64,000 nt of DNA from Rhodovarius crocodyli (lineage in GTDB: Bacteria > Pseudomonadota > Alphaproteobacteria > Acetobacterales > Acetobacteraceae): positions 434,001 to 498,000 of the forward strand of contig NZ_SACL01000002.1 of assembly GCF_004005855.1 (NCBI RefSeq), given 5' to 3'. Both the position numbers and the translations under genes were made by a program. The notes beneath the pieces are model-generated. The model did no database searches. It was not told where the DNA came from and worked only from the letters and a program-made list of their open reading frames with translations. Position 1 is the first letter of the stretch. Every line of letters starts with the position of its first letter. This document shows, piece after piece, positions 1-4,563 of the stretch.

Positions 1-519
1 GTCGGCGGGGCCATTGGCCAGGCGCTCCGGCATGATGGCGGGCATATAGCTGGACGGCTTGCCGAGGGCGGCCGGCAGCAGGCCGAAGGGGCGCTTCAGG
101 CGGAACTGCACCGTGCGGTCGTCGAGTGCCGACAGCTCATCGGTCACGGCCCGCAGTTCCTGCCCGAAGGCATCCCGCCGCCACCAGCGCTGCAGGCTGG
201 CCACCACATCCCTGGCCAGCACCGGCGTGCCGTCATGGAACTTCAGCCCCTCGCGCAGGGTCAGTTTCCAGCGCCTGCCGTCATCTTCCATGACATGCCC
301 CGCCACCATCTGGGGCGAGACCTCGAAGCCGTCATTGGTCCCGTACAGCGTGTCATAGACGAGGAAGGCGTGGTTGCGCGTGACATAGGCGGTGGTGAAG
401 GTCGGATCGAGCACGCCCACATCGGCCTGCGGCACGAAGCGGACCACGCTGCCCTGCTGGGCGATGGCCGGGGCGGCGAACAGGCCGGCGCTGCCGGCCA
501 GCAAGGAACGACGGTTCAT
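1..519 (-). CDS. ABC transporter substrate-binding protein, SBP_bac_5 type (3' part outside window)
   Basis: The first 173 residues of a periplasmic oligopeptide-type solute receptor are present; the rest lies beyond base 1. The N-terminus begins [20 protein letters not shown], a twin-arginine-like signal peptide ending in an AxA site. The mature start follows the family pattern, with an [15 protein letters not shown] segment and [18 protein letters not shown], the usual SBP_bac_5 signature. The ATG at 517-519 overlaps the stop of the upstream dehydratase gene by four bases (ATGA), so it is probably the third gene of that operon. The ligand cannot be told; context suggests a receptor for whatever compound the dehydratase and lyase break down. 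Permeases and ATPases would have to lie beyond the edge. Confidence 0.9.
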
Positions 520-2237
520 AACGGGGTCTCCATCAGGCGTCGGGGATCGGTGAGGCGGCCCGTCACCGCGCTGGCGGCGACGGTGGCGGGGCTGGCGAGA
601 AGGATCTCGGCGCTGCGGCTGCCCATGCGGCCGGGCGCGTTGCGGGAACCGGAGGAGACACACACCTCCCCATCGCCCAGCAGGCCCATGTGCAGGCCCG
701 CGCAGGCGCCGCAGCCGGGCGGCGTCAGCACGCAGCCGGCATCGAGCAGGGTGGCGAGCGTGCCGTCCCGCAGGGCGGCGGACTGCACGGCGCGGGAGGC
801 GGGCGTGACCAGCATGCGCACCCCCGGCGCCAGGCGGCGGCCGGCGAGAATGGCGGCGGCCTCGCGCAGGTCCTCGATGCGGCCATTGGTGCAGGTGCCG
901 AGGAAGGCCTGGTTGATGGCGGGCGCGCCGAAATCCGCGATGGGGGCCACCCGGCCGGGCAGGGCGGCCATGGGCGACAGCGCGCCAAGATCGACCACGA
1001 CCTCCTGCATATAGGCCGCCCCGGCGTCGAGACGCGGCCAGCCATGGTCGGGCGGCACCATGGCCGCCTTGGCGCCGAGCTCGACGGCCATGTTGCACAG
1101 GGTCATGCGCTGGGCCGTGGACAGCGAGGCCACGCCCGGCCCGTGGAACTCCAGCGCGCGATAGGTGGCGCCCGCGCTGCCCATCAACCGCAGCAGCGTC
1201 AGGCAGATGTCCTTGGCGGTCACGCCGGGGTTGAGCACCCCGTCCAGCACGATGCGGATGGTCTCGGGCACCCGCAGCCAGATACGGCCGGTGGCCCAGA
1301 CATGAGCGGTCTCGGTGGCACCGAGCCCCGTGCCGAAGCAGCCGACCGCGCCCAGCGTGGTGGTGTGGCTGTCGGCGTTGAAGGCCAGCTCGCCGGGCTT
1401 CACCAGCCCCTGTTCGATGCAGATCTGGTGGGAAATGCCCTCGCCCACCTCATGCAGCCGCTCCACGCCGAGGCGTTGCAGGAAGCGCCGGCCCTCGGCA
1501 TGGGCGGTGGCGTGCTCCACCGTCTCGGCCGGGGCGAAATGGTCATAGAACACACCGAGCCGTTCCGGATGCGGCAGGCGGGTGACGCCGGCGCGATCCA
1601 GGTGGTGCATCAGCAGCGAGATGGTGTCGTCCGGGATGAAGCAGTGGTCGGGCGTCACCTCGGCCATCTCGCCCGCGCGCAGGGGGCGGCCGGCGGCGCG
1701 GGAGAGGATCTGCTCCGCCAGCGTGCCGTTGTCGCGGACAGGCGCATGCAGCGGCGCGGGGGCCGCGGCCGCCAGGCCCGCGAGCAACCCGCCGCGGGCG
1801 ATGATCGCCAGCAGCGCGGCGGGCAGGGGCGGTACGGCAAGACGCTGCCCGTCCGCCTCGATCCAGCCCTCGGCCAGGTCGGCGGTCACGGTGGCCCCGG
1901 TCTCCAGCGCAGGCAGTTCCGGGCAGGCCACGGCGGGCAGGCCGTTGTTGATGCAGTTGCGGAAGAACAGGCGGGAGAAGCCGCGCGCCACCACCAGCTT
2001 CACGCCGGCACCCAGCAGGGCGGTCACCGCTTCCTCGCGCGCGCTGCCGCCGCCCAGGTTGTCGCCGGCCACCAGCACCGGGTGGGCGGCCACGCGGGCG
2101 GGCCATTCGTCACCCAGCCCCTGCAGCGCATGGGCCGCCTGGCGCCTGTGGTCCGTGATGCCCATGAAGCGCGCGGGGTAGAGAAGGTCCGCGTTGATGT
2201 CGCTGCCCGCGACCAGCGCGCTGCCGGAAACCCGCAT
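516..2237 (-). CDS. Fused small-large aconitase-family dehydratase (swivel domain first)
   Basis: This 573-residue protein joins both subunits of an isopropylmalate dehydratase-like enzyme in one chain. Residues 1-155 are a LeuD-like swivel domain ([13 protein letters not shown] at 58-70, [10 protein letters not shown] at 94-103). Residues about 170-565 are a LeuC-like catalytic part: DSH at 289-291, and cluster cysteines at C449 (LGTCTNGR), C509 and C512 (PPGCGACAG). A GRMGS-AEI segment near 536 resembles homoaconitase/dimethylmaleate hydratase relatives. Three cysteines imply a 4Fe-4S cluster and reversible (de)hydration of a 2- or 3-hydroxy diacid. The order small-then-large is opposite to AcnA and recalls AcnB without its HEAT domain. 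The start overlaps the lyase stop (ATGA), so the two are probably translationally coupled. The substrate is unknown; leucine biosynthesis is unlikely given the partner. Confidence 0.9.
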
Positions 2238-3115
2238 CAGCCCTGTTCCGGCCGGTAGCGCGTGTCCATGGCGGCCACCGCCTCCAGCCCGACGATCTCG
2301 TTGAACTCGGCAAAGCCGCTCATCCGGTCGGCCATGGCGGCATAGGTGCCGGCGCGGTTCACCTCGGCATACAGGTCGCCCAGGGCCCGCGTCACGGCGA
2401 ACACCACGTCGGGGTTCTGCACGAAGCGAAAGCCCATGGCCGCGATCTCGGCGGCGGGCGGGGTGGGGGAACGGCCGCCGAGCGCCCAGTTGAACACGGT
2501 GGGGCAGTCGAACTGCGGCGGCACGGAGGCCATCTGCTCCATGGTCTCCAGCGCCTCGATGAAGATCATGTCGGCGCCGGCCTCGCGATAGGCATGGGCG
2601 CGCTCCAGGGCGTCCTCGTAATTCGTGACCGCCAGGGCGTCGGTGCGGGCCAGGATGGCGAAATCGGCGTCGCGGCGGGTGTCCACGGCGGCCTTGATCT
2701 TGGCGACCATCTCCGCCTTCGGGATCACCCGCTTGCCTGCCATGTGGCCGCAGCGCTTGGGGGATACCTGGTCCTCGATCTGCACCCCCGCGACGCCGGC
2801 CTTCTCCAGCCCCCGGATCAGCCGCCCGACATTGAGATGGTTGCCGTAGCCATCATCGCCGTCGGCCAGCAGCGGCACGCCGATACGGTCCGCGATGCGG
2901 GCCGCGGTCTCCACCATCTCGGTCAGGGTCAGATAGCCGACATCGGGCAGGCCGAGGCGACCGGCGGCCACGCAATAGCCGCTCATATAGGCCATCGGCA
3001 GGCCGGCGCGCTCGGCCAGCAGGGCCGACAGCGCGTCATAGACGCCGGCCATGGGGATCAGCTCGGTGCCGGCCATCAGCTGGCGGAGGGCGGCGGGGCG
3101 GGATTCTGTGCTCAC
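2237..3115 (-). CDS. Isocitrate lyase / PEP mutase superfamily C-C lyase
   Basis: The 292-residue protein has the superfamily metal-binding segment DGDDGYG (85-91) and the mobile catalytic loop KRCGH (120-124) with C122. That cysteine is found in isocitrate, 2-methylisocitrate and 2,3-dimethylmalate lyases but not in PEP mutase, so C-C cleavage of a 2-hydroxy diacid is expected. I chose the GTG at 3113-3115 (MSTESRP...) because family homology begins just after it; the frame stays open upstream but that part overlaps the divergent regulator. The gene is first in an operon with the fused dehydratase. The pair matches the logic of dimethylmaleate hydratase plus dimethylmalate lyase, or of a methylisocitrate-type route. 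Oxaloacetate hydrolase activity is a less likely alternative. Confidence 0.9.
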
Positions 3116-3171: not shown

Positions 3172-4563
3172 ATGTGCGGGCGCGCCGCGGCGCATAGGAA
3201 AGCGTCAGCCGATGCGTTATCAGGCAGCACCGTTCCCGCCCGGAGAATCCGTCCCCTGGCCACACCCAAATTCCTGACGCTGGTCGACCATCTGGCCCAG
3301 GGCATTGCCAGCGGCCGCTGGCGCGAGGGCGAGCGCCTGCCGCCGCAACGCGAGCTCGCGGCCCAGTTCGGCGTGACCATCGCGACCATGACCCGCGCCG
3401 TGGCCGAGGCGACGAGGATGGGGCTGGTGATCGCGCGTCCCGGCAGCGGCACCTATGTGCGCGGCGCCGAGGCACCGGAGCCCAGCGGCATCGACCTGCG
3501 GCTGAACAACGTGCCCATCGTGCCCGGCATCCGCGCCGCGCTGGCTGCGGCGATGGCCGAGCTGGGGCGTGAAGGCGACCCGGAGCGCCTGTTCGGCTAC
3601 AACCCCGGCACGGGTGCCGCCCGACACCGCGCGGCGGCCGCCCGCTGGGTGGCGCCGCGCGGCCTGACCACCTCGGCCGAGGGGCTGCTGCTGTCCCACG
3701 GCGCGCAGCACGGCCTGGCGGCCTGCCTCGCGGCGCTGGCCCGGCCCGGCGACACGGTGCTGTGCGAGGCCTGGACCTATGCGGGCTTCCACCGCCTGGC
3801 GGCCGAGGCCGGCCTGCGGCTTCAGGGCGTGGCCATGGACGAGGAAGGCATGTGCCCCGAGGCGCTGGCCCGGGCCCTGCGTGAAACCGGCGCGCGCCTG
3901 GTTCTCTGCAGCCCCGCCGTGCAGAATCCCACCACCGCCACCATGGGGCTGGCGCGCCGCCGCGCCATACTGGACGCCTGCCGGGCAGTGGATGCCTTCG
4001 TGCTGGAGGACGACGTCTGCGGCTATCTGGCCGGCGACACCCTGCCGCCGTTGGCCGAGCTGGACCCGGAGCGCGCGGTCTATATCACGGGCCTTTCCAA
4101 GGCCGTCGCCCCCGGCTTCCGGCTGGGGCTGCTGCGCCCCCCGGCGCGCCTGCGCGCGGCCATCACCCAGGCGCTGGGCGTGCATCACTGGGTCGCCCCG
4201 GGCTTCTATGCTGAGGTCCTGGCCCGGCTGGTCGAGGCCGGGGTGCGGGCCGATCACCGGGCAGAGGTCGCGGCGCGCATGGCGCTGCTGGCCGCCCCGC
4301 TAGGCCTGCGGCCGCCGCTCGCCAGCTATCACGCCTGGCTGCCGGTGCCCGATGTCTGGCCCGTGGGCGATTTCGTGGCGGCGCTGGCCGGGCGGGGCGT
4401 GCTGGTGTTGCCGGCCGGGCATTTCGCCGTGGCCGGGGCGCCCGCGCCGCGCCATGTGCGGCTGTGCCTGGGGGCGGTCCCGCCCGAGGCGCTTTCCCGT
4501 GCGGCGGGCATCATCGCCGGGCTGGCGCGCGAACAGCCCTGGGCCCAGCAGGCGATGGTCTGA
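3172..4563 (+). CDS. MocR/PdxR-type GntR regulator with aminotransferase-like domain
   Basis: The 463-residue protein has an N-terminal GntR winged helix (about 32-97, with GERLPPQRELAAQFGVTIAT and GSGTYVRG). A fold-type I aminotransferase-like effector domain follows, with the PLP lysine in the GLSKAVAPGFR segment. Such MocR proteins sense PLP or an amino compound and act on nearby divergent genes. The ATG at 3172 is the first in frame. The first 25 or so residues are not family-like, so a later start is possible. It is divergent from the lyase/dehydratase operon, its likely target, and ends directly against the convergent cardiolipin synthase stop with no spacer. Confidence 0.9.
   Translation: MCGRAAAHRKASADALSGSTVPARRIRPLATPKFLTLVDHLAQGIASGRWREGERLPPQRELAAQFGVTIATMTRAVAEATRMGLVIARPGSGTYVRGAEAPEPSGIDLRLNNVPIVPGIRAALAAAMAELGREGDPERLFGYNPGTGAARHRAAAARWVAPRGLTTSAEGLLLSHGAQHGLAACLAALARPGDTVLCEAWTYAGFHRLAAEAGLRLQGVAMDEEGMCPEALARALRETGARLVLCSPAVQNPTTATMGLARRRAILDACRAVDAFVLEDDVCGYLAGDTLPPLAELDPERAVYITGLSKAVAPGFRLGLLRPPARLRAAITQALGVHHWVAPGFYAEVLARLVEAGVRADHRAEVAARMALLAAPLGLRPPLASYHAWLPVPDVWPVGDFVAALAGRGVLVLPAGHFAVAGAPAPRHVRLCLGAVPPEALSRAAGIIAGLAREQPWAQQAMV

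Follow-up and report, generated by a model that had tools for sequence, protein, structure and literature searches.

Several described systems come close to the operon reported here. In the nicotinate fermentation of Eubacterium barkeri, DmdAB and Dml are dimethylmaleate hydratase and dimethylmalate lyase, and, likened to the operon by description rather than by their sequences, they place a hydro-lyase of the hacA_fam/IPMI_arch kind beside a PrpB-like lyase with a K[KR]CGH loop, as the operon does. Petal death protein acts on 2-alkylmalates, and both it and PrpB have the fold family and the K[KR]CGH loop in common with the operon lyase. On plasmid pLGM of Ancylobacter pratisalsi, and at similar loci, the same isocitrate lyase/PEP mutase, LeuC and LeuD parts lie side by side, but in the order lyase-LeuC-LeuD, as separate subunits and with no function annotated. 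The domain order 4-linker-1-2-3 is known for AcnB, AcnX type I and "fungal IPMI", according to the accessible text of PMC8184944. No paper evidently on the DmdAB/Dml genes was among the literature matches listed, and the search returned nothing on petal death protein with methylmalate; both are weak negatives, as few subscription papers were covered.

The window analyzed here is the whole stretch of 64,000 nucleotides from Rhodovarius crocodyli (contig NZ_SACL01000002.1, positions 434,001 to 498,000), and the operon lies at its left end (Table 1). The initial annotation had described a 573-residue chain with a LeuD-like domain ahead of a complete LeuC-like part bearing C449, C509 and C512, coupled by overlapping codons to a KRCGH lyase and a solute receptor. 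The open reading frame, the profiles and the codons confirm the chain, and the coupling is equally clear from the gene junctions, where the lyase stop and dehydratase start share TGATG (2235-2239) and the dehydratase stop and receptor start share ATGA (516-519), together with K120-H124 and the SBP_bac_5 match. The divergent MocR gene is kept at locus L009 (Rhodovarius lipocyclicus) and at L153, in a genome of a second genus (G768).

Table 1. Genes and functional parts of the operon and its neighbors; positions are those of the window unless a locus label precedes them.
Feature	Position	Strand	Remarks
C-C lyase, PEP mutase/isocitrate lyase superfamily	2237..3115	-	292 aa, GTG start
KRCGH catalytic loop of lyase, K120-R-C-G-H124	2744-2758	-	
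Fused LeuD-LeuC-like dehydratase	516..2237	-	single 573-aa ORF
LeuD-like swivel domain of dehydratase, residues 1-155	1773..2237	-	TIGR02087; alignment to 2pkp and 3vba
Recognition loop FMGI of dehydratase, residues 24-27	2157-2168	-	
Ala/Pro-rich linker of dehydratase, residues 156-171	1725..1772	-	site of a stop and a start in relatives
LeuC-like part of dehydratase, residues 172-573	519..1724	-	TIGR01343, TIGR02086
Cluster cysteine codons C449, C509, C512	891-893, 711-713, 702-704	-	
SBP_bac_5 family-5 solute-binding protein, gene start	1..519	-	PF00496; remainder left of window, L026:12948-14000
M81/MlrC-type hydrolase	L026:11469-12944		PF07364/PF07171; minus strand, after receptor, outside window
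MocR-type regulator (GntR and aminotransferase domain)	3172..4563	+	divergent; longest possible start

In the dehydratase, the Pfam search found Aconitase_C, with its best stretch at residues 53-101, and Aconitase in two stretches, the best at 196-398, while NCBIfam placed LEUD_arch over 5-153 and IPMI_arch and hacA_fam from 172 to 566-567. The LeuC-like part scores above the cut-offs of the hacA_fam/IPMI_arch kind (TIGR01343, 445.3 against 385.7 bits; TIGR02086, 443.5 against 410.15), models that span other substrates too, and the LeuD-like domain narrowly misses its own (TIGR02087, 108.0 bits against 108.95). The DmdAB/Dml logic invoked at the outset fits this subfamily. Homoaconitase and AcnB identities were rejected on scores far under the cut-offs (NF040615, 347.5 against 550; NF040604, 89.1 against 230; NF006690, 95.2 against 782), and the AcnD model score is likewise far under its cut-off.

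An AlphaFold2 model of the 573-aa chain has a mean pLDDT of 90.8 and a pTM of 0.83, with the lowest confidence in the linker and the final residues and an internal minimum of 64-66 at residues 151-170. Residues 1-573 of the model superpose on AcnB residues 162-836 over 548 aligned positions (rmsd 3.4, Z 38.1), and the match to AcnX type I covers 466 (rmsd 6.3, Z 18.8). The swivel-first, one-chain order is that of AcnB without its HEAT domain, and also that of AcnX type I; it is not a new architecture. The absence of a HEAT domain, as first proposed, stands, with zero residues ahead of the swivel domain, but the supposed distinctness of the domain order does not, the order being AcnB's and already described. 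What does set the fused dehydratase apart from AcnB and AcnX type I is a sequence of the two-subunit LeuCD-like branch and a recent fusion. In the alignment of recognition loops, G26 stands opposite the Arg of YLRT in the M. jannaschii homoaconitase subunit; the position is also G in L009 and L153, and A in L088 (genome G405). G or A in place of the Arg would fit an alkyl group at that place better than a carboxylate. According to the accessible text of PMC7308503, substrate preference is set by this recognition-loop region.

The lyase matches PF13714 with 158.2 bits. Its nearest named model is prpB (TIGR02317), yet it falls under the cut-offs of both PrpB equivalogs (TIGR02317, 253 against 354.4; NF008455, 227.5 against 353), which distinguishes it from PrpB, and under that of the PEP mutase equivalog (TIGR02320, 112.7 against 319.55). 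The closest solved structure is petal death protein (1zlp), followed by PrpB.

Linkage between dehydratase and lyase was scored by tblastn, with the operon lyase and other reference proteins as queries, at 68 loci with a related LeuC, which are mostly best-scoring matches rather than a random sample and include the source locus, L009 and the loci that supplied references. The scoring left out L082 and L076 (duplicates), L084 (AcnA-type), L062 and most archaeal loci, as well as the class-scan places in G250, G361, G437, G458 and G464 and the second place in G347. Of the 68 loci, 43 have a lyase on the same strand no more than 3 kb away, as against 1 of 22 canonical LeuC controls, 20 of which were hand-picked from weaker matches rather than at random; within 8 kb the counts are 46 and 2, and without the source genome, L009 and L013 a lyase is within 3 kb at 40 of 64 loci. 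The dehydratase and C-C lyase envisaged in the initial annotation are, then, a real and recurring pair, and their linkage is conserved though not universal: among the 17 loci of the genome_contigs scan, a lyase was found at L009 and L013 only, and one relative, in Deinococcus, is part of a lysine operon. On a Peribacillus plasmid (L151:6527-10695), a CaiB CoA-transferase, LeuC-like and LeuD-like proteins and an HMG-CoA lyase occur together, in place of a pairing with the operon-type lyase, and the CoA-transferase and HMG-CoA lyase appear to be an alternative, CoA-based partner for this kind of dehydratase. A CoA-transferase and an HMG-CoA lyase also occur near the L088 copy.

The DNA of lyase and dehydratase is 83.8% identical, over ungapped columns, to that of R. 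lipocyclicus, where a TGA ends LeuD and an ATG opens LeuC. The source genome lacks both codons, and at the junction it differs by two gaps, of 8 and 2 bases, and by 3 extra bases; in L153 the LeuD/LeuC junction reads TGATG. Neither alternative frame of the fused ORF has a stop over codons 146-180, and no ATG or GTG occurs between codons 118 and 190 (there is one TTG, at 151), so a single base error would not restore two tidy genes. The fused form was met in one genome and is known from the assembly alone, as might be expected of an assembly error or a decaying gene, but the several junction changes relative to L009, the stop-free alternative frames and a full-length open frame with intact catalytic residues make such an origin very unlikely.

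The fusion was not encountered elsewhere in the collections scanned. At the 17 genome_contigs loci, LeuD and LeuC are always in different frames, and LeuC leads in 16, LeuD only in L009. In the class scan 49 of 385 genomes match at 1e-52 or better, source genome included, and among the places listed none but the source has both domains in a single open frame; the G453 match extends as far as query residue 105 but runs through a stop. Three of 397 genomes in the family scan pass 1e-95 (the source genome, G005, probably R. lipocyclicus, and G768), and both domains are spanned in the source genome only. Nine of 398 genomes in the phylum scan pass 1e-70, again including the source and with no other spanning place, and of the 134 plasmid records that match at 1e-40, none has a single place spanning 80% of the query. 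LeuD matches lie beside LeuC at 47 of the 68 compared loci, with LeuC first at 44 and LeuD first at L088, L009 and the source locus. L153 has the order MocR, lyase, LeuD, LeuC, receptor, and L088 has lyase-LeuD-LeuC followed by a TRAP transporter, both unfused. A LeuC tree, which left out L062, L084, L071_2 and L153 (obtained later), joins the source locus, L009 and L088 in a clade with support of 100/99. Because L009, L153 and L088 keep the same order unfused, the lyase-LeuD-LeuC order is an older trait of the small clade, in which the two genes fused late. The fusion is local and recent, with no other close relative found fused. The one-chain form had been put forward as the hallmark of a new pathway, a reading that finds no support, as this form was seen in one genome only, three relatives are unfused and the order is already described; chains of the same domain order were found in AcnB, AcnX type I and, distantly, L062. 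The L062 protein (L062:6647-8887), from another genus of the family, is a less similar single chain of 746 aa, LeuD-like then LeuC-like, near a CitMHS-type transporter, and L084 encodes a less similar AcnA-type single chain in the order LeuC-LeuD.

Four LeuC genes with LeuD partners lie elsewhere in the source genome, along with one frame of AcnA length and one of 998 aa. Scores above the cut-offs of the named models were obtained for LeuC, LeuD and LeuB at C48 and for the C47 LeuC; the other C48 LeuC, adjoining a second lyase, also passes the leuC model, so a leuC pass is no proof of a leucine role. A second dehydratase-lyase cassette (L040:6033-11948) encodes LeuD, LeuC of the bacterial type, a KKCGH lyase, an SDR, a Bug receptor and PrpF. 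Superfamily, domain make-up and the public names of relatives would all suit an isopropylmalate isomerase for leucine, but the fused dehydratase scores 213.1 bits against the leuC equivalog cut-off of 560.25 (TIGR00170) and the gene was found in only three family genomes at 1e-95, while LeuC, LeuD and LeuB elsewhere in the genome pass their own models. It is not the genome's only LeuCD, a question raised by the initial annotation, and because separate LeuC, LeuD and LeuB exist it is probably not the leucine enzyme, so that we consider the leucine role extremely improbable.

An M81 gene follows the receptor in both members of the genus, the source genome and L009, and was found only there; no M81 match was obtained in L153, whose sequence ends some 770 bases past the receptor. 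An M28-family hydrolase adjoins MocR in L153 (L153:6466-7692), and the source genome has a 50% identical M28 hydrolase at L026:3484-4689, some 7 kb past the M81 gene. Together with the family-5 receptor, these hydrolases hint at import of an amide-bound precursor. No match to a PrpF-type methylitaconate isomerase was found at the source locus (L026) or L009, although PrpF is present in L013 and the second C48 cassette. Relative to the DmdAB/Dml cluster, then, the source operon has a receptor and an M81 hydrolase instead of PrpF, and its dehydratase is one chain, with separate subunits in L009, L153 and L088.

Elsewhere in the class, related dehydratase-lyase pairs sit in larger islands, for which reference proteins were taken from L063 and L064, both of which match by construction. 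The order LeuC-LeuD-lyase-HyuB-HyuA-isochorismatase occurs at 11 loci in ten families (L063, L090, L091, L096, L101, L102, L103, L104, L111, L112 and L114), with one other match in between at L101, and a lyase with a PuuE-like enzyme of the polysaccharide deacetylase family on the same strand within 8 kb occurs at six (L064, L067, L071, L093, L098 and L106), with isochorismatase on the same strand at five. Two of the 22 controls likewise have HyuA and HyuB no more than 8 kb away. Outside the class, L160 is rearranged (LeuC, LeuD, HyuB, HyuA, isochorismatase, then lyase), and its LeuC is nearest to the Hyu/PuuE clade, at 50-60%. One 24-row clade of the LeuC tree, apart from the source locus, L009 and L088, holds nine of the 11 Hyu loci (L101 and L103 were lost, as their matches ran across a stop) together with five of the six PuuE loci, the exception being L071. 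The recognition loop reads YMK in all 11 Hyu loci, against FMG in the fused dehydratase and YLA in L088. These islands suggest an undescribed route from an amide or imide to a diacid and on to the lyase; nothing evidently on a LeuCD-lyase-hydantoinase/imidase cluster was among the literature matches listed, which covered few subscription papers. The islands inform the chemistry of the source operon and do not prove it. No HyuA, HyuB, PuuE or isochorismatase match was found at the source locus or L009, and imide chemistry for the source operon is disfavored since the Hyu/PuuE islands are mostly in the other LeuC clade.

The operon probably breaks down a small branched diacid. The reading we prefer, to which we give an even chance, is that it resembles the DmdAB-Dml module, with the two dehydratase genes fused in this lineage, and that it hydrates an alkylmaleate-type diacid and splits the product. 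We infer the substrate class, the direction, the products and the roles of receptor and hydrolase as follows. The family-5 receptor would serve uptake of a solute, which the M81-type hydrolase would perhaps free from an amide; hydration (or isomerization) of a maleate-type diacid with an alkyl substituent, by the [4Fe-4S] dehydratase, would give a 2-hydroxy acid, and the KRCGH lyase would break the C2-C3 bond of that acid, leaving pyruvate or glyoxylate as the oxo-acid and a short carboxylic acid. The ancestor would have had lyase, LeuD and LeuC in this order, with stop and start codons that overlapped or lay close together, and minor changes in length that removed the LeuD stop and the LeuC start would have produced one chain folding as AcnB does without HEAT. 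The unfused order in L009, L153 and L088, the lyase linkage, the hacA_fam/IPMI_arch passes and distant leuC score of the LeuC-like part, the recognition loop and petal death protein as best solved lyase match support this DmdAB-Dml-like model, and the TIGR02087 near miss, an operon without PrpF, the incomplete linkage and the restriction of M81 to two genus members count against it.

An isomerase and lyase in the style of aconitase and isocitrate lyase, in which the dehydratase shifts the hydroxyl of a tertiary alkylmalate through alkylmaleate and the lyase cleaves the 3-alkylmalate so formed to glyoxylate and an acid, would draw on half-reactions both common in aconitase-superfamily enzymes and on the ICL/PrpB-type loop of the lyase; nothing, however, sets isomerization apart from plain hydration, and the best solved lyase match is a 2-alkylmalate enzyme, so we regard this as possible but rather unlikely. 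A tricarboxylate route like the methylcitrate cycle, with hydration of 2-methylaconitate and cleavage of methylisocitrate, would account for PrpB as the nearest named lyase model, but seems improbable with a lyase under the PrpB cut-off, a dehydratase far under the AcnD and AcnB models, and a recognition loop without a basic residue. Phosphonate synthesis is hardly credible: PEP mutase is paired with a LeuCD-type phosphonomethylmalate dehydratase in the proposal for pantaphos (accessible text of PMC7858074), but here the lyase has KRCGH and a PEP mutase score far under the cut-off, and no synthase or monooxygenase is among the operon genes. We also entertain, as a long shot, that the dehydratase-lyase pairs form the lower half of undescribed routes that begin with substituted maleates in amide or cyclic imide form, the source operon being the M81 version with a newly fused dehydratase. 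HyuAB with isochorismatase, a PuuE-like imidase with isochorismatase, or M81/M28 metallohydrolases would then free the diacid, the LeuCD-like enzyme would hydrate it and cleavage by the lyase would yield an oxo-acid plus a short acid; alkylmaleimides from tetrapyrrole breakdown (methylethylmaleimide, hematinic imide) are one candidate source.

The operon therefore combines known superfamily chemistry with an uncharacterized catabolic setting and a recent gene fusion; the fused architecture itself is not the novelty, and the idea of a dehydratase-lyase pathway is plausible. Several relatives are annotated as 3-isopropylmalate dehydratase, and their neighbor genes often disagree. The Hyu/PuuE and isochorismatase islands point to an uncharacterized pathway open to direct testing. 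The fusion cleanly illustrates the making of one aconitase-superfamily chain out of two adjacent genes that remain apart in close relatives, and it shows a possible origin of the AcnB/AcnX domain order.
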